A DNA stretch of 64,000 nt from assembly GCF_003590835.1 (NCBI RefSeq), contig NZ_QYUQ01000002.1, positions 1,798,001 through 1,862,000 on the forward strand, read 5' to 3'. The translations under genes were made by a program, and so were the position numbers. Source of the DNA: Noviherbaspirillum sedimenti (lineage in GTDB: Bacteria; Pseudomonadota; Gammaproteobacteria; Burkholderiales; Burkholderiaceae_D). A model generated the notes under the pieces. The model was not told where the DNA came from and did no database searches. It was given only the letters and a program-made list of their open reading frames with translations. Shown here piece by piece: positions 2,923-47,826 of the stretch (positions within the stretch are counted from its first letter, which is position 1; each line of letters opens with the position of its first letter).

Positions 2923-3852
2923 TTATTCGCCGCCGCCCTGCAGCGCAGTCTTGATTTCTTCGTGCGTCAGTTGCGGCGCGAACTGCTGAATGAAGTCGTA
3001 TGTGTAGGAACGCAGATAAGCGCCACGGCGTACCGCCAGGCGGGTGACGTTGACGGCGAACAGATGGTCGACTCCGATATGGCGTAAGCCGTTATGAAAC
3101 CCCTGTTCGACCGCCATCGATGCGACGATGCCGACGCCGAGGCCGAGCGCAACGTACTGCTGGATCACGTCGGAATCCATCGCGGTCAGCACGATGTCCG
3201 GTGCAATTTCCGCCTGACGAAATGCCTGGTCGATATGGCCGCGGCCGGTGAAGCCGACATCATAGGTGATCAGCGGCCAGGCGGCCAGCGCCTGCAGGGT
3301 AATGCCTGTCTCCGACAAGAGCGGATGCCCCTCCGGCACGACCACCACGTGATTCCAGCGATAGCATGGGAAGGACACCAGCTCCTCGAACTGGCTCAGG
3401 CCCTCGGTGGCGATGCCGACATCCGCCTTGCCCGAAATGACCCACTGCGCGATGTGTTCGGGCGAACTCTGCTGCAGGGCGATGCGCACGTCCGGAAACG
3501 CCGCGCGGAAGGTCTGCACCACCTTTGGCAGTGCATAGCGCGCCTGCGTATGGGTCGCGGCGACGGTCAGCGTACCGCTGGTCTTGCCGGAATATTCCAG
3601 GCCTGCCTGCTGCAGATTTTCCGCTTCCAGCAACAAGCGCTCGATGATGTGCAGGATGCCCTTGCCGGGCTCGGTCAGACCGGTCAGGCGCTTGCCATTG
3701 CGCTCGAAAATGTCAACGCCCAGCTCCTCTTCCAGTTCACGGATCTGGCGGCTGACCCCGGGCTGCGAGGTGAACAGGACATTGGCCACCTCGGTCAGGT
3801 TATAGCCGCGCCGCGCCGCTTCGCGTACTGAACGCAATTGCTGGAAATTCAT
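2923..3852 (-). CDS. cysB: CysB/Cbl-type LysR regulator of sulfur assimilation
   Basis: A LysR-family transcription factor of 309 residues: winged helix-turn-helix at about residues 1-60 ([20 protein letters not shown]) and an inducer-binding domain containing the CysB-type [10 protein letters not shown] segment around residue 100. In CysB proteins this domain senses N-acetylserine/O-acetylserine and sulfate or thiosulfate. The gene is last in the cysT-cysW-cysA-cysB set and its ATG overlaps the cysA stop by 4 bp (ATGA, 3849-3852), implying co-transcription and coupling. It is the obvious candidate to bind the repeated AACGAAT box seen upstream of sulfur genes in this window. Cbl or SsuR, which are paralogues, cannot be excluded by sequence reading alone. 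Confidence 0.9.
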
Positions 3853-24684: not shown

Positions 24685-27600
24685 TCAATAGTCTTGCTTT
24701 GACGCCTTTTTTGCCTGCCAAAGCCTTGGCGTTCCGTCATCGACTTTTAATCCGACAAGGACGGATTTGACTCCGCTTGAAGGGTCGTAGTCCCGCGACG
24801 ATCGGTACTTCCAAAGCGTTATCTTGAAAACAAGTCGCTTGCTGACGGTGGACAATGTCGCAGCAAGCCAATCGGGCGAAGCCCATAAAATCTCACCATC
24901 CTCATGACGGCGATGCCGCCTGTTATCGGGATCGGGTGTCCAGCTGCCCCAAACCTGGCTTCTCAAAGCGAGACTTCCATCAGCCGTATGCCAATCACCG
25001 CTGTTTGGCTCATTCACCAACTCCAGACTCTTCGTGAGGTCGATTCCAAGACGCGGTCTCCCACCCGGTCCCTCCGCGGCGATTTCGTCGCCCACGTCTA
25101 TACCCAGACTGTGGGTCTCGGGTGCCCACACAAACGGAGCGAAAGGGCTCTTCGGACGGTGGTGGTGGTTGTAATACCCCTCGTCCCAAAACTCCGGCAG
25201 CCAAAGGTCATGGCTGGGTTGCTTGGCGAATGCCATGCACCGACCTATGGCGCCATTTCGCTCCGTCAGCGCCGACGTGATGCTTACTGTCACGCCATCA
25301 GGCGATGACCAGCTTCCATATAGTGGAAACAGCGCATCGGTGGCGGTGTCCACGAAGCCCAATTTCCGCAGCACTGTTTCTTGATCCTGCAGCATTTCCT
25401 GCTGGCCGATCCTTTCACCTAACAGATTTTCTTTCGCCTGCTGAGGAACAGGATCCTTCCGGTCAGACAGCCACGAACCGTCATCGAATGTGACGTCGTA
25501 GCGATCGCGCCACTCCATCCAAGGTGAGCCGCCTCCAGTTTCATAGCTCCGAACGACCACCGGCAGAGCCTTGGAAAGGCTGGTGGTAGCGTTAAGCAAC
25601 GCGTGTCTTTGAATATGCTCCCGGTAGGACTCATATCGATCGCCTCGGTCCCACTGATACCGCTCGCTGCCGGGAAAAAAATCCATCGAGGTGGCCTCCG
25701 GCCATCGGCGCGTAATCTCAGCCGTGATTGCATCTTCGACCGTTGCCTGTTCGACATTAAAGAGCCAAGCGAGGGTGCTGATCTCGTGTTTTGTAAATTC
25801 GTAGTCGAAGCGAAAGCCCGATGTCGATTTCGTGGCACTCGGGTAGACGTCGCTGGTGACAATGCCGCATGGCGGCTGGTCGATCTGATCGAGCAACGCC
25901 TCCAAATCCGCGTCGTGCTCTCCTTCGCTATTGATATGGCTTAGACACCTGGCGATGTGGACTTTGTCTATGACGTGAAGGTCGCTTCGTTGAGCGAGAG
26001 CCAGCAGCTTGGGTTGAAGAGACCTCATTGTTTGTCCGTGGTGCAAAGCGGCCCGCGCCAGACCCATCAGCAACCACTGCTGGGAATTTTGGAACGAAAG
26101 CTTTCGATCCGTCGATGCCAGGGCCGCGACTTCTCTTTGGTCGAAGCGATCAAGTAATAGGTTGAGTTCGTCGTTGAGCCCGAACTCGAAAAGTGTGTTC
26201 AGACCCCTCGCGACCGTCCAGCGGACATAGGCATCATCCTCGCCAAGGAGGTGCCAAACGACGTCGGCGAAGAACTCCAGTTCGCCCCCCCCTATTGCTT
26301 GCTCAGGGCGAAATGGTCCCTCTCCGATCTCGTCGGCGATACGAGATGCCGGCCCGGACAGCAGTAATTCCAGCGCGTCGAGACCGGCTTGGCCCGATGT
26401 TACGTCGCATAGGGCAGTGGCCAACTGCAGCCACTCATCACCGTCGAGCTCGACCTCATCCGCGGCGACCTTGCGGAGGACGAGCTGCAACACATAGCGC
26501 TTGTCATTGCACAAATCCGACAGCTGGCGGATGCCGCGCGCGGTGTTGGAGAACTGACCATCGAATAGCTCGGCACTCTTGCACTCGAACAGTCGTTCAA
26601 CCAGCGTTTTTGCATTGGAAACAAGGTGCGTGGATGAGCCGCTCCAGGCGGCGAAACACTCGGCGAGTATGTCCAGCGACTGAGTAAGATTCAGCTCGAC
26701 CGCGTCGCAGACCGCGAACAATAAGGCCAAACGCTTAGGGTACGGGCACGAGGCACGCAAACCAACGATGAAGCGCTGCCGGGAAGCGTAGTCAAGTTTG
26801 TCGTCCGCCTGGATGTTCTTCAGAGCCTTGTCGATCGAACTTGCAGAGGACGGATCGCAGTCCGAGACCAACGTCGCGATGAGGCTGTCAACCTCCTCCT
26901 TGCTTGGCTTTGGGGTTTGAATGGTCAGGAAATCCGGCGGCGAGTTATTGCGACTATTAAACTCATCCTGCTTGCGCTTCGCCTCTGCCCAGCGCCGTTC
27001 GATCGCCTCTCGCTCTTCGGTGGTGATTGCGTTTGGATACTGATTGCCCGTTTCCAGGAGTCCTTCCCAAAGCGAGGGCCAAGCACCGAACGGGTGCTCA
27101 GCGCGCAGTTTTGCGACGACCGCCAGAAAGATCCGCCTCTGATCCGCCGGCCTGGACAGTTTCAGCAGGTCTGCGACCCCATCTCCGGAACGCCAGTCCC
27201 ACCAGCCGTGATCTTCACAGATCGTAAGGACAAAGGCAGCACGGCGTGGATCGAGATTTCCGTTCTTGGCCAGAAAGCATGCAAGCTGCGGCAATCCGTA
27301 AGACAGGTCCGCCACGTCCTGGTCGTGCCAGCGCACGAGCTTGGCTATCGCCGGGAAACCTATGGACTTGGCTGCGGCACGCCCGAACAACGTCCATCCG
27401 AACTTGCTTGGCTCGTTCCGCACAATGGTCTGGCAAAGGTTCATTAGCCGCTGGGCCAGTTCGGGCTTTAGGAAGCCGCCTTGCTGGACGCTCGCAAAAT
27501 GAAGCAGTGAGTAGATCTGCTCATAGCTCTCTCCGCCCATCTGGTCCAACTGGGCCAGACCTTGTTGGTAGTATTCACGGGCCTCATCGACGCTCATGGG

Positions 27601-30600
27601 CACAAGAGAAGCAGCGAGTTCCGCGTAGGAATCGCCGCGCTGTCCAATGTTGTCATCCTGGCGGATTTGTTCCGTGACGTGCTGCGCGAATTCACCTGCA
27701 AGCTCATGGAGGGCCGACCGTTGAGTAAGCTGACCCAACACGTCGATCTTCTGCTGGACGGAGAACCGTCCGGAGGAAATCAAACTGATCAATGTCTTGG
27801 TTTGGTCGGCCGATATCGTAGGCGCATGGTTCAGCAGGATGCGGACACAGCCGAGCCCAACGGTTCGGACAAGCAAATCAGCTGCGCTTTCAGCCCTCCA
27901 GTGCCCGCCCTCGCGCACTTGCTTGCCCCACCCATCTAGGATGTCGTTGACGCTCGCACTCGTGAGTCCTTTGCCCGAAAGGACGGCGTCCTCGATCGGT
28001 CGCGTCAACACGAGTGCACGCTCAATTCCTTCGCTGATTTCCTCACGTTCCCGGTCGCTAAACCTCGCCCTGACCTGGTTCTTGCCGCCCTTCTTGCTGG
28101 GACCAGCGGGTACAGGTTCGCGCAGCTCCTTCAGAAACGCCACCAGCTCCGTCTTGGTCGAGACAGCTTTTGCCCGTCTGGTAACCTTCAGTTCGTTCGG
28201 AAGCAGGTCACGATAGCTGACGGGCCTTCCAACGGACCAAGCGCGAACACAGGCGCAGAGGATTGGGGACCAAGCTCTCGAGTTACCGTAACGCTCGCCG
28301 TAGTCGTAAGCCGACGGGCGAGTAAGCGGCGCATGGCGGATGATCGCTGCGGTTGCGGCTCGCGAGCTGTAGAAGAGCGATGTCAAAGCTGCCTGCACAA
28401 TGTCGCCGCTGTTCCCTTGCTCGTGTTCAATTGAGAAGCCCTCATCCTCGTCATCGTCGGCGGACGCGGGTGTTCCAATCGCCTTCGCAAGCGCCTTCAC
28501 CTGCTGCCTACTGAGATAGCGGGGGCGCGAGAGTAGCCGCAGTTTGAGCGCCTGCGACGTGCATTGGTCGCTTGCGGCAAACGACACAAAATCCGCGAGT
28601 ACCGTCGTGCCGTTTGCCCGGTCGAACAGCGCTAGCAGCTGCAGGAGTTCGTCGCTCGCGGACAGCGAGAAACGATCATTCCAGCGCGCGAGGTTGCGAT
28701 CGGCAATGCCAAACTCGCCTTCGGCGACATGCTGGAATAGCACCGCTGCGTAGTCCTCGACCCCTGGACCGGCGCGGTCGCGAAGTCTCTCGTCACGCGG
28801 CTGCTCGGTATGCCAGTTAATCCACCGAACTGTGCTCTCGCACTGAATTTGCGCTTCTTCGGTATTATTTGCAAAGCGATGCGCGACCGTCAACCGTGCA
28901 CTTCTGGCACCACGCCATCCCGAGCGATCCGAGAAAAGGCGGCGATAGGAGTCAGCATCACCGAGTACAATCGCGAGAGCAGGCGAGCTGCGAATGAATT
29001 CGTCGCCTCGCATGTTGGCCGTTGCGGCTTGGGCCAGCCGCATGCTGAGGCCAAGCACCCGGTCAAAGTCATCTTCTGCCACCGCCAATCGAAAGGCCGC
29101 ACGAAGGCGTGCGAGCGTTAGCCGACGGCGGCCGAACTCCGACTGCACCGTTGTTGGGAAGCTGGTTGAATCGGCGAGCGCGAATGCTCGGTCACTATCT
29201 TTGATGACAACCAGAAAGTGCGGCAGCGCTTCAGCTGCATATGCCGATGTCGCCTGCGAAGAGATAAGGCGGTCGGCAATAGTTCTTTGAGCCTCCGGCC
29301 GCTCGGAAAATGTCTCCCGAACATATGTTTCCGTAGGTTCGTCTCTGAAAATCGCACCGTGCGAGGTGATCTCGAGCATTGGAGCCAAATCCGATGCGGC
29401 GGTATTCACCTGAGCCGCAGACCACCCAAGTGCGTTTGCAAGTTCCTCGAGCGGAATCGGTGGAGGCAGGAGGGACAGCGCGACAAAGAACTCGGTTACC
29501 TCTGAATCCCGCCATCCTTCAACATGAAGATCCGAGACAATCTTGGTGCAACGTTGGGCGATAATTTCGGGGACAGTGATTGGGGCGGCCGAAGTTTTGC
29601 CGAGGACATTCGTGTCCCAGGTCTGAACAAGGTAGTCGAGGACACGCGCGTTCCGGCCAGAGCGTGCCAAGGCGGTTGCTATCTCCACACCGGAAGCACT
29701 TGGCTTGCGATCTTTCAGAAATTTGCGGGCCTCCGGATCGGTAAATGGTCCTAGCTCGACATCTTTCACTGCGGTGCGGCCAATGACCTTCTTTTTGCGG
29801 TGCGTGCGCGCCGTAAGTAGCAACTTCACTCCGTCGATAGAGTCTTCGTCGATGGTTGAGAGAAGGAGTTTCGGAAATGCTTCTTCGTGGCGGCACTCGG
29901 CTTCGAGCTGGGCGTTATCCGCAGCATCGACGATAATAAGCAAACCGAGCTTTTTCGATTGAGTTCTGATCGCCGTCGCAGCTTGAGCAAGTCGTCTGCG
30001 CGCCGCCTTGATGATTTTGCGACTGTCATCGCCGCCTGGTAGCATCAGATCACATAGTGTCCGTGAGGCTAGTTCATTGACGATCTGCACCAGCCCGATT
30101 CTGGGGAGGTGCCGGGAATGATTGTCTGAGCGGTAGGAACCACCACCAAAGCAGTCAAAAACGACGACTTCAAATTCGTTCGCCATCTTTGAAGCGAGGC
30201 TTTGGACAAACACGGTTTTGCCCACTCCGCCCTCCGCGTGGACGAAGACGGGCAGCTCTGACGCCTTGATTAGATCGCCGACCGTCGAAAGTTCAGCTCG
30301 CTCAACGACGGCACCCACGTCGATGAAGCGGGTGTCGGCCGGAAAAAGGTCCTCTGGCTCGCAATCGAGCGCATCCAAGACATCTTCGCGGCGAATCAGG
30401 TTTTTGCCCTGGCCGCTTGGTCCGGCCTTCTTAAGGACGAGGTCCTGGAGCCCGTGAAGCCGAAGCCTGGCCTCTGAATCGGCGCCGGCCGACCAGTCGG
30501 TGAGTGTTCGCCTGAGCGCGTTGTCTTGACCCGCAAGGCTCTTCTCTCCGGCTCGAAAAACTATTCTCGAGAAGAGACGACTTGCGTCAGATAGACCACG

Positions 30601-31116
30601 CTCGGAGCACCACTTCCTGAGGTTGCGAGCCTGGGTGGCTGCGCCGGGGGCTGAAGGCGACGTTCCCTCGATCAGGGACATTATCGCGTCCCAGAGACTT
30701 TCCGTGAATTCTGAGTTCGTGACGAAGATGAACGATGCCTTTTTGTCGGCGTCGGCTGCCGAAAACTCCTTCTCGTAGCCGAGGATCGTGTCGGAGAACT
30801 TCTCGATCGTCTTTTTCAGATAAGACGCTGTGACAGCCTCTTCGCGAAGCTTGTATTTGAACTGAACGGTCTCGAGCCGCTCGCAAGTCTGAAAATTGTC
30901 TCCGCGGCCATAATAGAGGACAAGGTCAGCTACTTCTTCGGCCCGCGCTCCGGGGCTCGCAGTCTCGGTCGAGGAGATCCCCTCTACGGCGATCGCAAAT
31001 AGATCGTCACTAGGAAAGACCAGTTGCAATGCCCGCCTGGCAGCCCATCTCTCGTGGAAGGTGTGGCCTGCGCGAGATGCGCGGACGGTATCGATGTCTG
31101 TGTCAATATTCAGCAT
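24685..31116 (-). CDS. Giant STAND NTPase with nuclease-like N-terminus, Avs (AVAST)-like antiphage protein
   Basis: The product is about 2,143 residues. At the N-terminus (about 10-200) RAGHTFHERWAARRALQLVF, then an acidic residue in AVEGIS, an aspartate in ADLVLYY and VQFKYK form the E...D...QxK order of PD-(D/E)xK nucleases such as the DUF4297/Cap4 group. At about residues 290-450 a STAND-type ATPase shows Walker A in EGGVGKTVFVQSLA, Walker B in LGLLIIVDAADNAQ and a sensor-like LLLTARTHRKKK. The remaining 1,500 residues are helical, repeat-like and unrecognised, as in the target-sensing C-terminal arms of Avs proteins. Domain order fits Avs3-like DUF4297-STAND proteins; that family link is my inference. 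The ATG at 31116 is likely; a GTG at 31137 would add seven residues. It stands alone in an insert beside the broken rlmI. Confidence 0.75.
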   Translation of the reverse strand: MLNIDTDIDTVRASRAGHTFHERWAARRALQLVFPSDDLFAIAVEGISSTETASPGARAEEVADLVLYYGRGDNFQTCERLETVQFKYKLREEAVTASYLKKTIEKFSDTILGYEKEFSAADADKKASFIFVTNSEFTESLWDAIMSLIEGTSPSAPGAATQARNLRKWCSERGLSDASRLFSRIVFRAGEKSLAGQDNALRRTLTDWSAGADSEARLRLHGLQDLVLKKAGPSGQGKNLIRREDVLDALDCEPEDLFPADTRFIDVGAVVERAELSTVGDLIKASELPVFVHAEGGVGKTVFVQSLASKMANEFEVVVFDCFGGGSYRSDNHSRHLPRIGLVQIVNELASRTLCDLMLPGGDDSRKIIKAARRRLAQAATAIRTQSKKLGLLIIVDAADNAQLEAECRHEEAFPKLLLSTIDEDSIDGVKLLLTARTHRKKKVIGRTAVKDVELGPFTDPEARKFLKDRKPSASGVEIATALARSGRNARVLDYLVQTWDTNVLGKTSAAPITVPEIIAQRCTKIVSDLHVEGWRDSEVTEFFVALSLLPPPIPLEELANALGWSAAQVNTAASDLAPMLEITSHGAIFRDEPTETYVRETFSERPEAQRTIADRLISSQATSAYAAEALPHFLVVIKDSDRAFALADSTSFPTTVQSEFGRRRLTLARLRAAFRLAVAEDDFDRVLGLSMRLAQAATANMRGDEFIRSSPALAIVLGDADSYRRLFSDRSGWRGARSARLTVAHRFANNTEEAQIQCESTVRWINWHTEQPRDERLRDRAGPGVEDYAAVLFQHVAEGEFGIADRNLARWNDRFSLSASDELLQLLALFDRANGTTVLADFVSFAASDQCTSQALKLRLLSRPRYLSRQQVKALAKAIGTPASADDDEDEGFSIEHEQGNSGDIVQAALTSLFYSSRAATAAIIRHAPLTRPSAYDYGERYGNSRAWSPILCACVRAWSVGRPVSYRDLLPNELKVTRRAKAVSTKTELVAFLKELREPVPAGPSKKGGKNQVRARFSDREREEISEGIERALVLTRPIEDAVLSGKGLTSASVNDILDGWGKQVREGGHWRAESAADLLVRTVGLGCVRILLNHAPTISADQTKTLISLISSGRFSVQQKIDVLGQLTQRSALHELAGEFAQHVTEQIRQDDNIGQRGDSYAELAASLVPMSVDEAREYYQQGLAQLDQMGGESYEQIYSLLHFASVQQGGFLKPELAQRLMNLCQTIVRNEPSKFGWTLFGRAAAKSIGFPAIAKLVRWHDQDVADLSYGLPQLACFLAKNGNLDPRRAAFVLTICEDHGWWDWRSGDGVADLLKLSRPADQRRIFLAVVAKLRAEHPFGAWPSLWEGLLETGNQYPNAITTEEREAIERRWAEAKRKQDEFNSRNNSPPDFLTIQTPKPSKEEVDSLIATLVSDCDPSSASSIDKALKNIQADDKLDYASRQRFIVGLRASCPYPKRLALLFAVCDAVELNLTQSLDILAECFAAWSGSSTHLVSNAKTLVERLFECKSAELFDGQFSNTARGIRQLSDLCNDKRYVLQLVLRKVAADEVELDGDEWLQLATALCDVTSGQAGLDALELLLSGPASRIADEIGEGPFRPEQAIGGGELEFFADVVWHLLGEDDAYVRWTVARGLNTLFEFGLNDELNLLLDRFDQREVAALASTDRKLSFQNSQQWLLMGLARAALHHGQTMRSLQPKLLALAQRSDLHVIDKVHIARCLSHINSEGEHDADLEALLDQIDQPPCGIVTSDVYPSATKSTSGFRFDYEFTKHEISTLAWLFNVEQATVEDAITAEITRRWPEATSMDFFPGSERYQWDRGDRYESYREHIQRHALLNATTSLSKALPVVVRSYETGGGSPWMEWRDRYDVTFDDGSWLSDRKDPVPQQAKENLLGERIGQQEMLQDQETVLRKLGFVDTATDALFPLYGSWSSPDGVTVSITSALTERNGAIGRCMAFAKQPSHDLWLPEFWDEGYYNHHHRPKSPFAPFVWAPETHSLGIDVGDEIAAEGPGGRPRLGIDLTKSLELVNEPNSGDWHTADGSLALRSQVWGSWTPDPDNRRHRRHEDGEILWASPDWLAATLSTVSKRLVFKITLWKYRSSRDYDPSSGVKSVLVGLKVDDGTPRLWQAKKASKQDY

Positions 31117-31457
31117 TATTGTTATTGCGCCTTTCACCCCAACAGCGCTCAGTTATTGGATTTCACCATTCTTTTGCCAGTCAAGGGTGACTGTACCACC
31201 AGCGCGCCATTCACCCACAGGCTCCAACGGTGTAACGAGTCTGCGCAAAGAAACTTTCAGTCTGAAGCCGGAAGCGCACCTGCATTCTAGCGGGGTAACA
31301 CGGCCACTTTCCCCGCTGGTCGGGCCTAGTCAGGGGGAGTCCTCTGACACCCAAACCTCTCATTTCGGGTCCGCTTTGAGTCTTGCAGACATTCTAGACA
31401 AACATGATTGGCAACGTACCCATACGTAAAATCCACAAAGGCAAGCCCCTCCAGACT
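31117..31457. other. Right flank of the accessory insert, promoter region of the Avs-like gene
   Basis: About 340 bp between the Avs-like gene and the end of the ABC transporter operon. It should hold the promoter of the large gene. No gene, tRNA or clear direct repeat matching the left flank is visible. Confidence 0.5.
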
Positions 31458-39753: not shown

Positions 39754-39837
39754 CCAAACCGCCCAATCGGTCGCTACGATCTTCGCCATTCATCGTTCAT
39801 AACCTGTCATGACAGGCTCGATAGAAAACTTGCCCCA

Positions 39838-40044
39838 CTGTCCGCCGCCCGTGAAGTAAAGCCGGGAACGGCGCTGCTGCGTATCGAGCGTTTGACATAC
39901 AGCGCCGACGGCAAGCCGCTGGATTTTGAACATTTGTATTTTCGCGGAGATGCATTCCAGTACCGGTTGAAAATCTCGCGGCGACTGGACCATCCGCCCT
40001 CGCATCAATTTCAGGGGAACGCCCCTGATCCAACCAGGAATTAA
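39838..40044 (+). pseudogene. C-terminal remnant of a GntR/HutC-type regulator (UTRA domain)
   Basis: Reading in the frame that contains GCC at 39847 gives AREVKPGTALLRIERLTYSA, DGKPLDFEHLYFRGDAFQYR and about 20 further residues to a TAA at 40042-40044. The G-T-x-L-L-R-I-E-R-L-T-Y pattern followed by D-G-K-P and Y-F-R-G-D is the end of the UTRA ligand-binding domain of HutC-type GntR regulators. The DNA-binding domain and most of the UTRA domain are gone. The stop overlaps the next ATG (TAATG), so the intact regulator was once coupled to the AprA-like gene and probably controlled it. Confidence 0.75.
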
Positions 40045-41798
40045 TGATGGAAACTCATATCCAGACCGTTGACGTGCTCGTGATCGGCGGCGGCACTGCC
40101 GGACCGATGGCGGCAGCCAAGGCCAAGGAAGCCAATCCGCAACTGCGGGTGCTGCTGCTGGAAAAAGCCAACGTCAAGCGCAGCGGCGCCATTTCGATGG
40201 GCATGGATGGCTTGAACAATGCCGTGGTGCCGGGCTTCGCCACACCCGAACAGTATGTCAAGGAAATCACGACCGCCAATGACGGCATCGTCAACCAGAA
40301 AACCCTGATGGCGTATGCGCAGAACAGCTTTCCGATGATCGAGGAACTCGACCGCTGGGGCGTGAAATTCGAAAAGGATGAAACCGGCGACTATGCCATG
40401 CGCAAGGTGCACCACATGGGCACGTACGTCTTGCCAATGCCGGAAGGTCACGACATCAAGAAAGTATTGTATCGGCGCCTCAAGCGCCAGCGCGTGGAAA
40501 TCACCAATCGTCTGGTCGCAACGCGCCTGCTGACGGCTGACGACGGCAGCATCGCTGGCGCCATGGCTTTCGATTGCCGCAGCGGCGATTTTCACGTAAT
40601 CCGCGCCAAGACCGTGGTGCTGTCGACCGGCGCTGCCGGCCGCCTTGGCCTGCCCGCCTCCGGCTACCTGTTCGGCACCTATGAAAACCCGACCAATGCC
40701 GGCGATGGCTACAGCATGGCGTACCACGCCGGCGCAGAACTGTCGGGGCTCGAATGCTTCCAGATCAACCCGCTGATCAAGGATTACAACGGCCCGGCCT
40801 GCGCCTACGTGACTGGCCCGTTTGGCGGCTTCACCACCAACAACAAGGGCGAGCGCTTCATCGAGAGCGATTACTGGAGCGGCCAGATGATGCAAGAGTT
40901 TTACAACGAACTACAAGGCGGCAACGGCCCGGTGTTCCTGAAACTGAACCACCTGGCCGAAGAAACTATCAGCACCATTGAAACCATCCTGCATACCAAT
41001 GAACGCCCCAGCCGCGGCCGCTTCCATGAAGGTCGCGGCACCAATTACCGCGAGCAGATGGTGGAAATGCATATTTCCGAGATCGGCTTCTGCAGCGGCC
41101 ACTCAGCCTCTGGCGTGTGGGTCAACGAGCATGCCGAGACCACGGTGCCAGGGTTGTACTCCGCCGGCGACATGGCATGCGTGCCGCACAACTACATGCT
41201 GGGCGCCTTCGTCTACGGCAAGCTCGCCGGCGAAAGCGCGGCGCGCTATTGCGCCGAAAAGCCGCTGGCCGATATTGACCAGGGCCAGGTCGAGCGGGAG
41301 CGCCAGCGCGTATGGGCGCCGCTGTCGCGCCGGGACGGCTTGCCGCCGAACCAGGTGGAATACAAGCTGCGACGCATGGTCAACGACTACCTGCAGCCGC
41401 CCAAGGTAACCCGCAAGATGGAAATCGGCTTGTCGCGCTTCGAAGCGATCCGCGAAGACCTGGACCGCCTGCAGGCGAACAATCCGCATGAATTGATGCG
41501 CGCACTGGAAGTGCACGCCATCCGCGACTGCGCCGAAATGGCGGCGCGGGCTTCGCTGTATCGCACGGAAAGCCGCTGGGGCCTGTACCACAACCGCGTT
41601 GATTATCCGGAACGCAATGACCGCGACTGGTTCGTTCATGTCCAGCTGAAAAAAGACAACGAGCAGATGACTTGCTTCAAGCGCGCCATCGAACCCTACA
41701 TCGTCGCGCTCGATGAAAATGAAAAAACCGCCTATCAGCGTTTGCGCATCAACAAGGAAGCCGACGCGCAAACCAGCAACCAGGCGCATGCCGCCTGA
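40044..41798 (+). CDS. AprA-like FAD-dependent oxidoreductase
   Basis: A 584-residue flavoprotein of the fumarate reductase/APS reductase alpha family. The FAD-binding GGGTAGPMAAAKAKEAN lies at about residue 15. AprA-like landmarks follow: EKANVKRSGAISMGMDGLNN, the GHSASGVWV segment (matching the G-S-H-S-G region of AprA with its active-site His), the second FAD motif YSAGDMA, and the C-terminal helical part HELMRALEVHAIRDCAEMAA then RWGLYHNRVDYPERNDRDWF. From memory, an AprA arginine near the FAD/AMP site is not conserved in the ECFQINPLIKDYNGP stretch, so it is probably not a true adenylylsulfate reductase. AGGA precedes the ATG. It heads a seven-gene unit with an ABC importer. Confidence 0.85.
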   Translation: MMETHIQTVDVLVIGGGTAGPMAAAKAKEANPQLRVLLLEKANVKRSGAISMGMDGLNNAVVPGFATPEQYVKEITTANDGIVNQKTLMAYAQNSFPMIEELDRWGVKFEKDETGDYAMRKVHHMGTYVLPMPEGHDIKKVLYRRLKRQRVEITNRLVATRLLTADDGSIAGAMAFDCRSGDFHVIRAKTVVLSTGAAGRLGLPASGYLFGTYENPTNAGDGYSMAYHAGAELSGLECFQINPLIKDYNGPACAYVTGPFGGFTTNNKGERFIESDYWSGQMMQEFYNELQGGNGPVFLKLNHLAEETISTIETILHTNERPSRGRFHEGRGTNYREQMVEMHISEIGFCSGHSASGVWVNEHAETTVPGLYSAGDMACVPHNYMLGAFVYGKLAGESAARYCAEKPLADIDQGQVERERQRVWAPLSRRDGLPPNQVEYKLRRMVNDYLQPPKVTRKMEIGLSRFEAIREDLDRLQANNPHELMRALEVHAIRDCAEMAARASLYRTESRWGLYHNRVDYPERNDRDWFVHVQLKKDNEQMTCFKRAIEPYIVALDENEKTAYQRLRINKEADAQTSNQAHAA

Positions 41799-41809
41799 AA
41801 GAGAAGACC

Positions 41810-42043
41810 ATGCCAACCGCCATCAATATCACCAGCGTCCCGGTCAGGGTCGATGAAGAAAAATGCATTGCCGAAAAAGGCTGCACCGTGTGCGTCGATG
41901 TCTGCCCGCTCGACGTGCTGGCGATCGACCTCGTCAAGGGCAAGGCTTACATGAAATTCGATGAATGCTGGTACTGCATGCCATGTGAAAAGGATTGCCC
42001 CACCGGCGCCGTCCACGTCGATATCCCGTATTTGCTGCGTTAA
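41810..42043 (+). CDS. Short AprB-like ferredoxin, two [4Fe-4S] clusters
   Basis: A 77-residue protein with two cluster motifs: CIAEKGCTVCVDVCP and CWYCMPCEKDCP. The linker KGKAYMKFDECWYC and the segment PTGAVHVDIPY match the corresponding part of AprB, the electron-transfer subunit of APS reductase, but the C-terminal tail of AprB (about 70 residues that wrap AprA) is missing. It is 11 bp from the AprA-like gene with AAGAGAAG as ribosome site. It very probably carries electrons to or from that flavoprotein in the cytoplasm. Confidence 0.9.
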   Translation: MPTAINITSVPVRVDEEKCIAEKGCTVCVDVCPLDVLAIDLVKGKAYMKFDECWYCMPCEKDCPTGAVHVDIPYLLR

Positions 42044-42096
42044 TGAAGTGCCTTGAAGTAGAAGTGATCCGAAAATAACCACTCTGGGAGAAGTAA

Positions 42097-43497
42097 ATGC
42101 AACTGCATAAAAAACTGCTGGGCCTGGCCCTGGTACTCGCCTTCGGCAGCGCCAACGCCGAAACCATCCGCATCGCCATCGGCACGCAAGATACCACCAT
42201 CAATTGCGCCACCGGCGGTCTGCTGATCCGCGAACTGAAACTGCTCGAAAAATACCTGCCGCGCGACGGCAAGTACAAGGATGCGCAATATGACATCCAG
42301 TGGAAGAACTTCACCTCGGGTGCGCCGCTGACCAATGAAATGGTCGCCGGCAAGCTCGACTTCGGTTCGATGGCCGACTTCCCCGGCTCCTTCAACGGTG
42401 CAGCGCACCAGAAAGCCGGCAAGCAGAGCATCTTCATCAATGTCCTGTCCGGCAGCACGCTGGGCAGCGGCAACGGCATCGTGGTGCCGAAATCATCGCC
42501 GGTGCAGTCGATCTCGGAATTGAAAGGCAAGACGATTTCCGTGCCGTTCGCATCGACTTCGCATGGCATGCTGCTGCGCGCCATCAAGTCACAGGGCTGG
42601 GACCCGGAAAAAGATGTGACCATCACCACCCAGTCGCCGGAAGTCGCCGGCTCCGCCTTGCAAAGCAACAAGATCGAAGCCCATGCCGACTTCGTGCCGT
42701 TTGCCGAACTGTTTCCGCACCGCGGCTATGCCCGCAAGATCTTCGACGGTTCGCAAGCCAATGCGCCGACCATGCATGGCAGCCTGGTCGATGCCGAATA
42801 CGCCAAGAAATATCCGGAAATCGTGGTCGCCTACCTGCGCGCAGCCATCGAGGCTGACCGCATTATCGCTGCCGAACCGGAAAAGTACAGCGAACTGATC
42901 GCCAAGGTCACCGGCATCGAAGCCGAAGTCAACTACCTGTTCCATGGCCCGCTTGGCTTGCAAACCCGCGATCTGAGCTGGAAACCGGAATACCGCCAGG
43001 CGGTGAAGACGTCGATTGAAACCCTGCGCCTGCTCAAACGCACCGACAGCGATATCGACGTCAATGCCTTCATCAACGATCAGTACCTCCGCACCGCCTT
43101 CAAGCAAGCCAGCCTGAACTATGACGCCCAGTTGAAGAACTACGCCAAGCTGCCGCTGACTGCCAAGGACGCCGTCACCGGCAAACCGATCGCAGATCCG
43201 AAGCGCGTCGCGCAGATATGGGTCGAGGGTGAACCGCTGGTGCGCCATTATGCAACGGCGGAAACCGCCTTTGCCGAAGCCCGCAAACTGGAAAAGGCCG
43301 GCAAGAAGATCCGCACCGTGTATGCGCATGACCGCGAAACCGGCCTGAAGCTGCTGGCCGGCGATGCCTGGTTCGTTGCCCACGGCAAGAATGAAGTCAG
43401 CGCCTTCCTGCTGAAGGCATCCGCCGAGGCATGGGCCCAGAAGAACAAGGGCAAGGTGCTGGATTTCGACACCGCCAAGGCCGGCATTGCCAGCTGA
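42097..43497 (+). CDS. SsuA/TauA-type binding protein fused to a NosL-like domain
   Basis: A 466-residue periplasmic protein. Signal peptide MQLHKKLLGLALVLAFGSAN-A, then a binding domain (about 22-340): IRIAIGTQDTTINCATGGLL, MVAGKLDFGSMADFPGSFNG, SISELKGKTISVPFAST. SsuA proteins end near here; this one has about 120 more residues. The last 70 (KIRTVYAHDRETGLKLLAGD, AWFVAHGK, ASAEAWAQKNKGKVLDFDTA) match the NosL pattern of a V-x-D-x-x-T-G strand, D-A-W-F-V, and A-x-x-x-A-x-x-x-G-G-K-V-L-x-F-D. NosL domains bind copper in nitrous-oxide reductase assembly, but no Cys/Met metal motif is obvious here. GGGAGAAG precedes the ATG. Domain assignment of the C-terminus is inference. Confidence 0.85.
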   Translation: MQLHKKLLGLALVLAFGSANAETIRIAIGTQDTTINCATGGLLIRELKLLEKYLPRDGKYKDAQYDIQWKNFTSGAPLTNEMVAGKLDFGSMADFPGSFNGAAHQKAGKQSIFINVLSGSTLGSGNGIVVPKSSPVQSISELKGKTISVPFASTSHGMLLRAIKSQGWDPEKDVTITTQSPEVAGSALQSNKIEAHADFVPFAELFPHRGYARKIFDGSQANAPTMHGSLVDAEYAKKYPEIVVAYLRAAIEADRIIAAEPEKYSELIAKVTGIEAEVNYLFHGPLGLQTRDLSWKPEYRQAVKTSIETLRLLKRTDSDIDVNAFINDQYLRTAFKQASLNYDAQLKNYAKLPLTAKDAVTGKPIADPKRVAQIWVEGEPLVRHYATAETAFAEARKLEKAGKKIRTVYAHDRETGLKLLAGDAWFVAHGKNEVSAFLLKASAEAWAQKNKGKVLDFDTAKAGIAS

Positions 43498-43525
43498 TCA
43501 ATGAGCAACCAAGCGGAGTCCTGAC

Positions 43526-44347
43526 ATGGCCAGCACGAGCCTCAACCTCCCCGGCGCAGCGAAGCTGCAACTGACCGGCCGCCTGCTGTTGCGGGTAATC
43601 TCCATCGCCGCCTGCGTCCTGGCCTGGCACTGGGCGTCAACGCGGCACATCAACCTGGGCCTGGTGACATTCCAGAATGTTCCCCCGCCCAAGGACGTGC
43701 TGCAGGCGGCGCTCGACCTGATCCAGTCGCCCAGGCTGGCGCAGCATCTGTCGGCCAGCGTGTACCGCGTGTTTGCCGGCTTTGCCGGCGCCGCGGTGGC
43801 AGGCATCCTGCTGGGCCTGGTGATTGGCCGCTCGCGCTGGCTGGAGGATGTGCTGCTGCCGCCGCTGGAAGTGCTGCGGCCGATTCCGGCCGTGGCCTGG
43901 ATTCCGCTTGCCATCCTGATGTTTCCCTCGTCGGAAATGTCGATGATCTATATCACCTTTATCGGCGCGCTGTTTCCGATCCTGCTCAACACCATCCACG
44001 GCGTGGAAGGCGTCGATCCACGCCTGATCGCCTCCGCCCGCAGTCTGGGCGGCAGGCGGCGCGCCATTTTCACCGAAGTGATCCTGCCCGCCGCCGCGCC
44101 CAACATTGTCACCGGTCTGTCAATCGGCATGGGCACCGCCTGGTTCTGCCTGGTGACTGCCGAAATGATTTCCGGCCAGTTCGGCATCGGCTATTACACC
44201 TGGGCTTCGTACACCATCCAGAATTACGCCGAGATCGTGGTGGGCATGCTGTTCATCGGTGTCATCGGCATGGGCAGCAGCGCGCTGGTCAAGAAAATTG
44301 GCAATGCGCTGATGCCCTGGTATCTGCTGCAAAGGAAAAAAACATGA
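43526..44347 (+). CDS. SsuC/TauC-like ABC transporter permease of the AprA-like cluster
   Basis: A 273-residue inner-membrane permease with about six spans (LLLRVISIAACVLAWHWAST; PIPAVAWIPLAILMFPSSEM). The EAA-type loop is PRLIASARSLGGRRRAIFTE. It has GGAG 8 bases before the ATG and overlaps the ATPase start by 4 bp. It forms the channel for the NosL-fused binding protein's ligand. Confidence 0.92.
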   Translation: MASTSLNLPGAAKLQLTGRLLLRVISIAACVLAWHWASTRHINLGLVTFQNVPPPKDVLQAALDLIQSPRLAQHLSASVYRVFAGFAGAAVAGILLGLVIGRSRWLEDVLLPPLEVLRPIPAVAWIPLAILMFPSSEMSMIYITFIGALFPILLNTIHGVEGVDPRLIASARSLGGRRRAIFTEVILPAAAPNIVTGLSIGMGTAWFCLVTAEMISGQFGIGYYTWASYTIQNYAEIVVGMLFIGVIGMGSSALVKKIGNALMPWYLLQRKKT

Positions 44348-45189
44348 GCAACAATGCTAGCCAGGGCAAGATCGAGATCGACCGTGTGCACATCCGGCTG
44401 GGCGCAGGCAAACAGGAATTTGAAGCCCTGCAGGATGTGTCGATTTCGGTTGCACCGGGTGAGTTCGTTTGCATACTCGGGCCTTCCGGCTGCGGCAAGT
44501 CGACGCTGCTCGGCGCGCTTGCCGGCCATCTGGCGCCAAGCCAGGGCAGCGTCCGCGTCGATGGCCTGCCGGTCAGCGGACCGCACCCGGACCGCGGCCT
44601 CGTGTTCCAGCATCACACGCTCTTCCCCTGGAAGAAAGTCGTGGAAAACGTCGCCTTTGGCCTGAAAATGAAAGGCATCCCGCGCCGCCAGCGTCTGCAG
44701 CAGGCGCATGACCTGCTCAAACTGGTGGGACTGGAAGGCTTCGAAAACGTCTATCCCGGACAACTTTCGGGCGGCATGCAACAGCGCGTGGAAATTGCAC
44801 GCGTGCTGATCAACCATCCGCGCGTGATGCTGATGGATGAGCCTTTCGGCGCGCTCGATGCGCAAACCCGCCTCAAGATGCAGGAGCTGTTGCTTGAGGT
44901 CTGGGCGCGCATCCAGACCAGTATCGTCTTCATCACCCACGACATCGACGAGGCGCTGTTCCTGGCGGACCGCATCCTGGTGATGAGCCCGCGTCCCGGG
45001 CGCATTATCGAAGAGATCCCGCTCGAATTCGCCCGTCCGCGCAATGCGGAATTGCTGACTTCCAGCAGGTTCACCCAATTGAAACGGCATTGCATGGCAT
45101 TGCTGCACCCCGGGGCACATGTCGCTCCGCTGGAGCGTCTAAGTCCTCTGGGGGCGGTGCCGGCAAGCCTGCTGCAATTCGCAATTTAA
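44344..45189 (+). CDS. SsuB/TauB-like ABC transporter ATPase of the AprA-like cluster
   Basis: A 281-residue ATPase with Walker A GPSGCGKST, signature LSGGMQQRVEIARVL, Walker [17 protein letters not shown] and ITHDIDEA. It overlaps the permease stop (ATGA). The C-terminal 35 residues are a variable tail (HCMALLHPGAHVAPLERL). With the neighbouring permease and binding protein it makes a complete importer of the nitrate/sulfonate/taurine class. Confidence 0.92.
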   Translation: MSNNASQGKIEIDRVHIRLGAGKQEFEALQDVSISVAPGEFVCILGPSGCGKSTLLGALAGHLAPSQGSVRVDGLPVSGPHPDRGLVFQHHTLFPWKKVVENVAFGLKMKGIPRRQRLQQAHDLLKLVGLEGFENVYPGQLSGGMQQRVEIARVLINHPRVMLMDEPFGALDAQTRLKMQELLLEVWARIQTSIVFITHDIDEALFLADRILVMSPRPGRIIEEIPLEFARPRNAELLTSSRFTQLKRHCMALLHPGAHVAPLERLSPLGAVPASLLQFAI

Positions 45190-45200
45190 GGAACAAAACA

Positions 45201-46178
45201 GTGAGTCTGGTATTCAACGACGATCCTGAAATTCAGGCCATCCATGAAAGACTGCAGTCGCCGGATAATGAAGTGCGGCGGATTGCCATCCTGGATTTGA
45301 CGGACATTGCGGGCGATGAACATGCCGCGCTTTTCATCACTGCCTTGCAGGATGCTTACGCCCGGGTGCGCGCCGAAGCCGCGCGGGCGCTGGAGGCGTT
45401 CGAAAGCGATGCCAGCGTCGCCGGCCTGGTTGTGCTGTTAAGCGATGCCGATGCCGACGTGCGCGAAGCTGCGGCGCACAGCCTCAGCGAATTGAAAAAC
45501 TCCGCATCGGCGGATCTGCTGCTGGCGCATGCCAGCGCCGCCGATTCCTTCGTGCAAGTGGCGATTTTGCGCGCCTTGCGCGAATTGCGCGTGGCGGAAA
45601 GTTTCGAACCCGCGCTTGCCGCTCTGGGCAATGGTGATCCGGCAGTGCGCCGCGAAGCGGTTTCCGTCCTGGGCTATCTGAAGCGGCCAGCGGCACTGGC
45701 GCCCTTGACCGCTATCGCTGCCGGCGACGCCGATCCTGACGTGCGCCGGGCCGCGGTGGGCGCGCTCGGCTTTGCCACCGATGACTCGGTACTGCCGGCG
45801 CTGCTGTCGGCATTGCTGGATCCTGCATGGCAGGTACGCGAGGAAGCGGCGACGACGCTGGGCAAACTGCGTTTCCCCCAAGCTGCGCAAAGCCTGATTG
45901 AGGCGCTGCAAGACAGCTATTGGCAAACGCGCTTGCGCGCGGCGCGCAGCCTTGGCCGCTTGCGCAGCACGGCTGCCGTCCCGGCGCTGATCCTGACGCT
46001 GGCGCATGAAAACAGCAACCTGCGCAAGGAAACGGCGCTGGCGCTGGGCGAGATTGGGGTGGAAACGGCGCTGCCGGCGCTGGAAAGCCTGCAGGCTGAT
46101 CCCGATCCCGAGGTGCGCAAGTCGGTGCGCCTGGCGATCGAACAGATTCGTACAGCGTCCTGGCAGGAAATGCCGTAA
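45201..46178 (+). CDS. HEAT-repeat (PBS lyase-type) protein
   Basis: A 325-residue cytoplasmic protein made of about nine to ten HEAT-like repeats of roughly 31 residues, each with the A-x-x-x-L-G-x-L/D-P-x-V-R pattern (LSDADADVREAAAHSLSELK, NGDPAVRREAVSVLGYLK, AGDADPDVRRAAVGALGF, LDPAWQVREEAATTLGKL). PBS-lyase-type HEAT repeats act as scaffolds or in cofactor/metal-centre assembly. I choose the GTG at 45201, 11 bp after the ATPase stop with TAAGGA upstream; a longer frame overlaps the ATPase. Here it may help assemble or dock the AprBA-like complex; that is inference. Confidence 0.88.
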   Translation: MSLVFNDDPEIQAIHERLQSPDNEVRRIAILDLTDIAGDEHAALFITALQDAYARVRAEAARALEAFESDASVAGLVVLLSDADADVREAAAHSLSELKNSASADLLLAHASAADSFVQVAILRALRELRVAESFEPALAALGNGDPAVRREAVSVLGYLKRPAALAPLTAIAAGDADPDVRRAAVGALGFATDDSVLPALLSALLDPAWQVREEAATTLGKLRFPQAAQSLIEALQDSYWQTRLRAARSLGRLRSTAAVPALILTLAHENSNLRKETALALGEIGVETALPALESLQADPDPEVRKSVRLAIEQIRTASWQEMP

Positions 46179-46469
46179 ATGCCTTATCCGCAAGCACTGC
46201 GCAGCGATGCCCGTACCGCGCTGCTCGAAATTGTCTGGGATGACGGCACAACACAGCAACTGGATGGCGCGCTGCTGCGCCGCCAGTGCCCCTGTGCCGA
46301 CTGCAAAAGCATGCGCCAGCGGAGCAGCGATGCACTTGCGATCCACCCGCCAGCGAGCATCACAGATATCCGTCTGGTGGGCGCCTACGCCGCGCAAATC
46401 ATTTTCAGCGACGGCCACGAACGCGGCATTTTCCCCTGGGTGTACCTGAAGGAGCTGGATCAGGAATAA
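46179..46469 (+). CDS. DUF971-family protein (GBBH-like N-terminal domain)
   Basis: A 96-residue protein of the DUF971 fold (LLEIVWDDGTTQQLDGALLR, RQCPCADC, FSDGHERGIFPWVYLKELD). Domains of this type bind zinc or support Fe-S proteins and are found alone or fused to Mrp/ApbC and to gamma-butyrobetaine hydroxylase. The C-x-C-x-x-C set is a plausible metal site. The ATG follows the HEAT-protein stop directly, so it belongs to the operon. Its end overlaps the 3' end of the opposing SfnB-like gene by 10 bp. Confidence 0.9.
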   Translation: MPYPQALRSDARTALLEIVWDDGTTQQLDGALLRRQCPCADCKSMRQRSSDALAIHPPASITDIRLVGAYAAQIIFSDGHERGIFPWVYLKELDQE

Positions 46470-47719
46470 ATCGACGGTTCCGGCACTTCGCCGGTCAGTA
46501 CCCACTGGCCGACATCTTTCAGCTTGTAGTCGAGCGAATCATGCAGGGTATGCACGCGCACGTTGCGCCAGAAGCGGTCAAAGCCGTATTTCGTCGCCGT
46601 AGCGCGCGCCCCCATCACTTCAAAAATCTTCGAGGTAATCTCCAGCGCGGCGCGGGCGGCGACTATCTTCGCTTCGTAGATCGCCAACGCGGCAGTGCCG
46701 CGCTGCTCTGCAGTCAAGGCATCGCCCAGCTCCCAAGCCTGCTGCAACTGACTGGCGGCCGCTTCGGCCAGGGCAATCGCCCCGCGCAACGCAATCCAGA
46801 GGTCGCCATAATGCTGCTGGGTAAAGGGATCATCGATAGCGCGTTCGACACCGGAAGAAATCCACGGACGGCCCTGCTCGTGCGTGTACTTCCAGGCGTT
46901 GAGCAGCGCGCCCTGCGCATTGCCGATGTAAATTTCAATCAGAATCAGTTGCGAGACCAGCGTGCGCAGCGTGGCCCGCGGCGTGCCGGTGGTGCCTGGC
47001 GGCCCCAGCACTTCGTCGCGCTCGACGCGCACCCGGTCGAATGTCACCGAGCCGCTATCGGTCTGGCGCTGCCCCAGGTTATCCCAGTCGTCGTGGATAT
47101 TGATACCGGCACGATTGGTGGGGATCGAAAAAAATACGCGCTCGGCCGGCTTGTCCGGGTTCGGCGCGGTGACGTTCAGCATGTCCGAACCCGTCGCTCC
47201 CGAGCAGAATGACTTGGTGCCATTTAATTCAAAATAACCGCCATCGTCGTCGCGCCAGATCAGTGAGGCCCGATTATCCAGGCCATTGGTCGCGTTGCCC
47301 CAGAACCAGCCTTCCGTCACGGTCTTGCCCAGGAACTGCTGTTTCTGCTCGGGATTTCCGAACAGGATGATGCTGGCGACTTGCAGATGCTGGAAGCCGA
47401 ACAGATGCGCGAGCGAACTGTCCACTTCGGCGAAGCGCCGGATGATTCTGTAAATGAGCGGCCAAGGCGCTTCCGGGCCGCCGAATGCAGCAGGCACCGC
47501 CAAGGGCAGCAGGCCGCTGTCGCGCAAGGCCTGGCGCTCGGCCCAGGCCGTACCGCCGCGCTGGTCGCGTTCAGGGGCGGTCAGCGCCAGTACAGCCGCA
47601 GTCGACTCCACTGCTTCGGTCAGTGCGCCAAAGTCGCGCCGCACGAGATGCAATGGCTTGCTGCCGGCAGCGGCGCGCGGCAACTGCTGCAGTTCGCTTA
47701 GTTTCGGTATTTTGCCCAT
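46460..47719 (-). CDS. SfnB/DszC-like flavin-dependent monooxygenase (acyl-CoA dehydrogenase fold)
   Basis: A 419-residue protein with the acyl-CoA dehydrogenase fold: N-terminal helices (LRDSGLLPLAVPAAFGGPEA), a middle beta domain (GYFELNGTKSFCSGATGSDM) and the C-terminal helical bundle (EITSKIFEVMGARATATKYG). No catalytic glutamate for CoA dehydrogenation is evident, and the sequence is closer to the SfnB/DszC group of reduced-flavin-dependent enzymes acting on sulfur compounds such as dimethyl sulfone. The ATG at 47719 is usual in size; a GTG at 47773 would add 18 residues and places the CysB-type box at a distance nearer to that of the other genes. Convergent with the AprA-like operon. 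Confidence 0.82.
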   Translation of the reverse strand: MGKIPKLSELQQLPRAAAGSKPLHLVRRDFGALTEAVESTAAVLALTAPERDQRGGTAWAERQALRDSGLLPLAVPAAFGGPEAPWPLIYRIIRRFAEVDSSLAHLFGFQHLQVASIILFGNPEQKQQFLGKTVTEGWFWGNATNGLDNRASLIWRDDDGGYFELNGTKSFCSGATGSDMLNVTAPNPDKPAERVFFSIPTNRAGINIHDDWDNLGQRQTDSGSVTFDRVRVERDEVLGPPGTTGTPRATLRTLVSQLILIEIYIGNAQGALLNAWKYTHEQGRPWISSGVERAIDDPFTQQHYGDLWIALRGAIALAEAAASQLQQAWELGDALTAEQRGTAALAIYEAKIVAARAALEITSKIFEVMGARATATKYGFDRFWRNVRVHTLHDSLDYKLKDVGQWVLTGEVPEPSIYS

Positions 47720-47826
47720 TTTATTGCCAGTCCAGTTCGATTGGAATCCGATTTCCCGGAACGCGTCACGCACGCGCCGGCAAGCTCAGAAATGGGTCGA
47801 TCATAGGCATGAACAAGCACACAGAC

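Follow-up and report, generated by a model that had tools for sequence, protein, structure and literature searches.

Adenosine-5'-phosphosulfate (APS) reductase, AprAB, pairs a subunit carrying flavin adenine dinucleotide (FAD) with a two-cluster ferredoxin. The phosphoadenosine-phosphosulfate (PAPS) reductase of Methanothermococcus is used for assimilation and acts on PAPS made in the cell; in the reaction modelled for it, flavin N5 attacks the sulfur and a FAD-sulfite intermediate forms (PMC10322725, in excerpt). The asfRABC system is summarized in a review as a binding protein, an ATP-binding cassette (ABC) transporter, a reductase and ferredoxin for electron transfer and a LysR regulator, and an asfA mutant loses the use of aromatic sulfonates but retains that of aliphatic ones (PMC4267179, in excerpt). 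For Cupriavidus metallidurans CH34, the genome paper assigns AsfA and AsfB to Rmet_4334/5 (PMC2864759, in excerpt). Here, these systems are compared with an operon of seven genes from Noviherbaspirillum sedimenti, located on the plus strand at positions 40044–46469 of a stretch of 64,000 nt (NZ_QYUQ01000002.1, positions 1,798,001–1,862,000). This stretch is referred to as the window and coordinates are window positions unless another record is named. The operon represents a well-conserved family that still lacks a described function; it is not a new type of system. Searches of the open-licence part of PubMed Central (PMC) returned no description of its flavoprotein family or of the reaction, and PMC7661421, PMC8557817 and PMC3506598 (in excerpt) do not mention the window-type family.

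All seven genes have the same orientation, with intergenic gaps of 0–53 bases or an overlap of 4 bases, which confirms the row of genes that an earlier note on this DNA had described. The first gene (40044–41798) encodes an AprA-like FAD flavoprotein of 584 residues and is present as a single copy in the source genome according to a DNA search. The protein is a member of NF006131 (PRK08275) with 1098.5 bits (cut-off 587). Its second-best profile is PRK13800 (NF010374; 898 positions) with 893.4 bits, below the cut-off of 1196, and the dissimilatory AprA model TIGR02061 yields 183.5 bits, below the cut-off of 641.75. The closest solved structure by sequence is the α subunit of the Methanothermococcus PAPS reductase (8a8o, 285 bits with a profile), followed by AprA and then by SdhA. 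The same structure is the top fold match of a model of the flavoprotein fused to the HEAT-repeat protein. NCBI names NF006131 "fumarate reductase/succinate dehydrogenase". We think that this large family, already modelled by NCBI, is misnamed as a fumarate reductase.

A tree of 44 rows was calculated from 18 window-type flavoproteins, 12 AprA, the PAPS reductase, succinate dehydrogenase-like proteins and AsfA of the CH34 type (midpoint root, with long-branch warnings). The window-type flavoproteins group with AprA and the PAPS reductase (support 97/93), away from the succinate dehydrogenase-like proteins and the CH34-type AsfA. The window-type flavoproteins are only weakly united (60/94) and may be either a clade or the stem of AprA; their placement beside AprA is stronger. 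The branch of the PAPS reductase is long. In the alignment, the HPT motif of succinate dehydrogenases is replaced by NPL and the stretch of their Arg motif is a gap. We take the HPT motif and the catalytic Arg to be functional residues of SdhA and FrdA.

The active site was surveyed in 128 alignment rows of relatives of the window protein, which itself is not among them; 123 of the rows are distinct and five repeat a gene reached twice. Asn74, Trp234 and Arg265 follow the numbering of A. fulgidus AprA, counted on an alignment. The number 398 of the AprA histidine and the roles of the active-site residues, including the arginine of the LRNH motif, are assumed here. The positions of Asn74 and His398 are occupied by Asn and His in all 128 rows, as in all 12 AprA sequences. 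Arg265, present in 12/12 AprA and in the PAPS reductase, is replaced by Leu in 128/128 relatives (123 distinct), and Trp234, likewise present in 12/12 AprA and in the PAPS reductase, is replaced by Tyr in every row. The arginine of the LRNH motif shows the same distribution among AprA (12/12) and the PAPS reductase, which thus retains both arginines, and falls into a gap in 18/18 window-type rows. Near the site, DYWSGQM is invariant in the window-type family, and a loop VHHxGxYVLPMPEG stands where AprA reads GRWQIMIHGE. Judged from these alignments, the pocket is of the AprA type with its anion anchors gone and other invariant residues in their place, which makes a different substrate likely. 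The earlier note had suspected the loss of a substrate-site arginine and had read the protein as AprA-like but not a true AprA. The Leu at position 265 bears out the former, and tree and active site bear out the latter: the flavoprotein does not sort with ordinary fumarate reductases, nor with true AprA that have the complete set of site residues.

Conservation of the operon was counted in 80 named loci from Burkholderiaceae, Pseudomonas and a few others. These loci are the ones that match a Cupriavidus query best and are not a wide sample. Enough flanking sequence was available for 73 loci; the other 7 were dropped as too short. Ferredoxin and HEAT genes follow the flavoprotein gene in all 73 loci, the genes of binding protein, permease and ATPase in 66 and the DUF971 gene in 58. 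All seven genes are present in window order at 55 of the 73 loci, and the unit is widespread, with many soil bacteria among its carriers. The gene order of an Acinetobacter unit is the same as in the window. Units of Mesorhizobium, Methylobacterium and Sinorhizobium have the order DUF971, flavoprotein, ferredoxin, HEAT. Three cyanobacteria carry flavoprotein, ferredoxin, HEAT and Mrp/NBP35 genes, with other genes separating flavoprotein and ferredoxin in Nostoc.

Of 299 genomes from the phylum, 15 contain the family, as do 12 of 145 genomes from the source organism's own family and three of the six own-genus genomes listed. Within the genus Cupriavidus, 14 of 60 genomes exceed the NF006131 cut-off. 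Furthermore, 51 records of a plasmid collection contain a match, some of these being megaplasmids or chromosome-sized. The patchy presence together with the plasmid copies suggests that the unit has moved between genomes by transfer.

The second gene (41810–42043) encodes an AprB-like two-cluster ferredoxin. Its similarity to the AprB model TIGR02060 is weak (39.4 bits, cut-off 135.65). With 77 residues it is much shorter than AprB chains (150 and 166 residues) and also shorter than the β subunit of the PAPS reductase (104 residues), itself shortened. Accordingly, the AprB tail is missing, as had been noted before. The HEAT-repeat protein is encoded at about 45210–46178; its start codon is uncertain and the listed frame opens at 45090. 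It matches the C-terminal part of PRK13800 (positions 656–896), the same model that is the second-best profile of the flavoprotein. In Actinobacteria, proteins of the PRK13800 type carry a similar flavoprotein fused to HEAT, whereas HEAT is a separate gene in the window. The unit of Tsukamurella, for example, reads GntR, ferredoxin, binding protein, permease, ATPase and flavoprotein fused to HEAT. A structure model of the fusion (mean predicted local distance difference test score 75.5, predicted template modelling score 0.56) gave no trustworthy arrangement of flavoprotein and HEAT part. The last gene (46179–46469) encodes a DUF971 protein of 96 residues (GBBH-like_N, PF06155, 79.8 bits); like the HEAT gene it had been recognized from the sequence and is indeed present. 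In the cyanobacterial units its place is occupied by Mrp/NBP35, an Fe-S carrier in which the domains FeS_assembly_P and NUBPL are present; this suggests that the gene position may serve cluster delivery.

The importer is formed by a periplasmic binding protein of the SsuA/TauA class (42097–43497), a permease of the SsuC/TauC/NtrB class (43526–44347) and an ATPase of the TauB class (44344–45189). Permease and ATPase were assigned by family profile matches. The class of the importer is that of SsuABC/TauABC, with scores below the NCBI cut-offs. Residues 60–285 of the binding protein match SsuA and TauA structures best; its score against the SsuA family TIGR01728 (113.2 bits, cut-off 163.5) makes kinship clear and lies below membership. 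In contrast to SsuA and TauA, the binding protein has an additional C-terminal domain (residues ~368–459). Residues 368–459 yield 18.8 bits against NosL (PF05573), below the gathering threshold of 24, and NosL is listed for 15 of 18 binding proteins scanned, the window protein included (E values up to 5, best 1.3e-6). The structure model of the binding protein is poor (49.8) apart from its end, and this better-predicted end resembles the NosL structure 7og7 (template modelling score 0.60 by target). The extra domain is real and probably NosL-like, and both it and the SsuABC-class importer agree with the earlier description.

The operon is located in a sulfur block. The region 2.9–19.3 kb of the window contains genes of the CysB family (2923–3852), CysA, CysW, CysT, SsuC, SsuD, three SsuA-type proteins and an SsuB-type ATPase. 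The CysB-family, CysA/W/T and SsuA/C/D assignments are above the NCBI cut-offs, the SsuB-type ATPase is below its cut-off. A rhodanese and a Sulf_transp transporter (TsuA/YedE-type) are encoded at 37.5–39.6 kb. Elsewhere, the unit of Sinorhizobium americanum adjoins sulfate and sulfonate transporters and TauD, and two cyanobacterial units adjoin a TauE sulfite exporter and a YeiH-type exporter. The identified neighbours in the window and in S. americanum uphold the earlier placement in a sulfur block and point to an assimilatory setting. Genes for electron supply are found next to the unit of Methylobacterium (FdxA and a ferredoxin-NADP reductase), and the unit of A. caldus adjoins FdxA as well. 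On the A. caldus plasmid pTcM1 a protein of 1153 residues with a Pyr_redox_2 stretch (locus L018, 10574–14035) directly follows the flavoprotein, ferredoxin, HEAT and FdxA genes.

With even confidence for and against, we read the operon as an accessory sulfur-scavenging, ferredoxin-linked oxidoreductase for an imported compound of the sulfonate class; substrate and reaction are what we infer. Binding protein and ABC importer would bring in the organosulfur compound. In the cytoplasm, flavoprotein and two-cluster ferredoxin would form an AprAB-like unit that the HEAT protein, standing in for the absent AprB tail, would hold together, and the DUF971 protein may assist in filling the iron-sulfur clusters. 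Electrons would reach FAD via the ferredoxin clusters. Flavin N5 would then react at the substrate sulfur in a way akin to the AprA mechanism and so release sulfite for assimilation. Least certain is the direction, here taken as reductive. Elsewhere, the compound would be sensed by GntR or, in cyanobacteria, by a LysR regulator with a binding-protein-type domain.

Several points weigh against sulfur scavenging. The importer is missing from 7 of the 73 units, and importers of the SsuA class carry non-sulfur ligands too. The sulfate-holding residues of AprA are changed in the flavoprotein, and therefore an AprA-type attack on sulfur is an analogy only. Among the recurrent neighbours of Pseudomonas units, which were clustered and not annotated, no sulfur gene was recognized. 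Organosulfur scavenging is also a less natural reading for the units of A. caldus, a sulfur autotroph. Of the earlier proposal of a new reaction on an imported sulfur compound, the distinction from true AprA and the assimilatory sulfur setting stand, while the sulfur substrate and the reaction rest on context. The note had not anticipated the large NCBI-modelled family, the GntR regulator and its truncation, the published AsfAB parallel or the HEAT fusion of Actinobacteria.

Most likely, a large family that public annotation calls fumarate reductase is a sulfur enzyme beside APS reductase. If this is true, access to organic soil sulfur may involve a flavin/iron-sulfur route in addition to the known monooxygenases, and assimilatory enzymes with a different substrate would be part of the stem of the AprA tree. 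A possible though doubtful extension is a new class of ferredoxin-dependent organosulfur reductases derived from the APS-reductase stem. Such enzymes would offer aerobic soil bacteria, cyanobacteria and actinomycetes an O2-independent release of sulfite from a sulfonate-class compound, by flavin-N5 chemistry on a C-, O- or N-bound sulfo group instead of APS. Direct starting points in the search for the substrate are the altered pocket, the HEAT part of the fusion and the regulator with a binding-protein-type domain.

Alternatively, flavoprotein and ferredoxin could be an electron-transfer helper of a separate monooxygenase, FMN-dependent or other, that cuts the C–S bond. We regard this as rather unlikely, although reviews describe the AsfAB reductase and ferredoxin in that way (PMC4267179, in excerpt). 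Genes of DmoA-class monooxygenases lie near the unit in Cupriavidus, S. americanum and Ensifer, and SsuD is encoded in the window. In four of ten Pseudomonas loci (L161, L162, L163 and L165) a binding-protein gene and a DmoA-like gene come after the CH34-type AsfAB pair; a check of the L161 gene showed it to be luciferase-like. However, no oxygenase is among the seven conserved genes, and the AprA-like pocket with its own invariant motifs suggests that the flavoprotein has a substrate of its own.

A second alternative, which appears unlikely, is that the operon is AsfAB itself, orthologous to AsfA/AsfB of P. putida S-313 and directed at aromatic sulfonates. Genera for which asfA is reported overlap with those that carry the window-type family (PMC9694294 and PMC4267179, both in excerpt), and a Rhodococcus fusion relative bears the name "Putative reductase (alkanesulfonate metabolism)", which equally favours the sulfur-scavenging reading. 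On the other hand, CH34 is said to possess AsfA/AsfB, but its genome has no NF006131 match (best relative E 1.6e-23). Rmet_4334 was placed at ~923 kb by interpolation only, from the spacing of TauD genes against six Rmet TauD tags (PMC2864759, in excerpt). Seven TauD places were found, six of them on one contig; the spacing of these six agrees with that of the tags, in one case only with the record origin shifted. The flavoprotein and ferredoxin pair nearest to this position is located at 928–930 kb (flavoprotein at 928216–929862 in the CH34 record NC_007974.2, 100% identity) and comprises 549 and 111 residues, respectively. As in the window, ABC ATPase and permease genes lie beside the pair, and a binding-protein-like gene, judged by eye, is also near. 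In contrast to the window, no HEAT or DUF971 match was found at this locus. The CH34 flavoprotein scores 56.2 of the 587 bits against NF006131, and proteins of its type form a separate group in the tree (100/100) with 24–28% BLAST identity to the window protein. A second CH34 flavoprotein at ~896 kb lies in a cluster that, judged by eye, is succinate dehydrogenase-like.

Regulation also bears on this alternative: AsfR is of the LysR type, whereas a GntR match lies upstream of the operon in 70 of the 73 window-type loci. GntR is no clean separator, as a GntR match also adjoins the pair in one of ten CH34-type Pseudomonas loci (L166). The identity with asfRABC is thus weakened as far as CH34 is concerned. 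AsfAB is the nearest published parallel; in C. metallidurans its flavoprotein seems to be of a different family. The CH34-type protein was found in none of 25 genomes from one genus and in 12 of 249 from another, which is not decisive. In an Azospirillum relative, the CH34-type pair is followed by an SsuA-family protein, an ATPase and a permease. On plasmids of S. americanum and Ensifer adhaerens the CH34-type pair stands side by side with a window-type unit (L141, 6066–15567, and L140, 8001–17703, respectively, both on the minus strand). The like layout and this adjacency on two rhizobial plasmids make a linked role of both systems likely. The flavoprotein-HEAT fusion family includes a cluster named Rhodococcus opacus. 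Schmalenberger, in 2009, is said to have found the R. opacus type strain to be without asfA.

It is quite improbable that the enzyme acts as a dehydrogenase or reductase on a carboxylate or another sulfur-free compound, as its NCBI name and fold superfamily would have it: NPL in place of HPT, the gapped Arg stretch and the position in the tree separate it from succinate dehydrogenases, and the sulfonate-class importer and the sulfur neighbours speak against this reading as well. That it is a genuine APS or PAPS reductase serving assimilation, as the nearest solved relative might suggest, is dismissed as most improbable in view of the two lost arginines and the low TIGR02061 score; moreover, there would be no point in an importer for a nucleotide that the cell makes itself.

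Upstream of the operon, the last third of the GntR/UTRA regulator that as a rule precedes it is left at 39763–39999 (plus strand). This remnant corresponds to residues 183–253 of the 254 residues of a Cupriavidus GntR (tblastn, 47% identity, E 4e-16), and its open frame has only 98 codons. Among 12 loci of the same family, the regulator is near full length and open in nine, two lack any match within 1.5 kb and the window retains the fragment. Since only a fragment is present, the window operon may be constitutive or under another regulator. In Leptolyngbya, a LysR regulator of 678 residues with an NMT1-type binding domain behind it, as assigned by Pfam, is adjacent to the unit (L026, 7382–9415, minus strand), and a relative of similar length (47%) lies beside a second cyanobacterial unit (L025, 7661–9676, minus strand). 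The binding domain of the Leptolyngbya fusion matches the binding proteins of the units, mostly with 31–36% identity. The fusion may sense the imported compound inside the cell.

Downstream, an acyl-CoA-dehydrogenase-type oxidoreductase of the DszC/SfnB class is encoded on the minus strand (46460–47773; 371 and 281 bits, both below cut-off) and probably does not belong to the operon. Further upstream in the window, an open frame of 2150 residues on the minus strand (24685–31137) contains a NACHT domain and is possibly a stand-alone NACHT NTPase as in phage defence.

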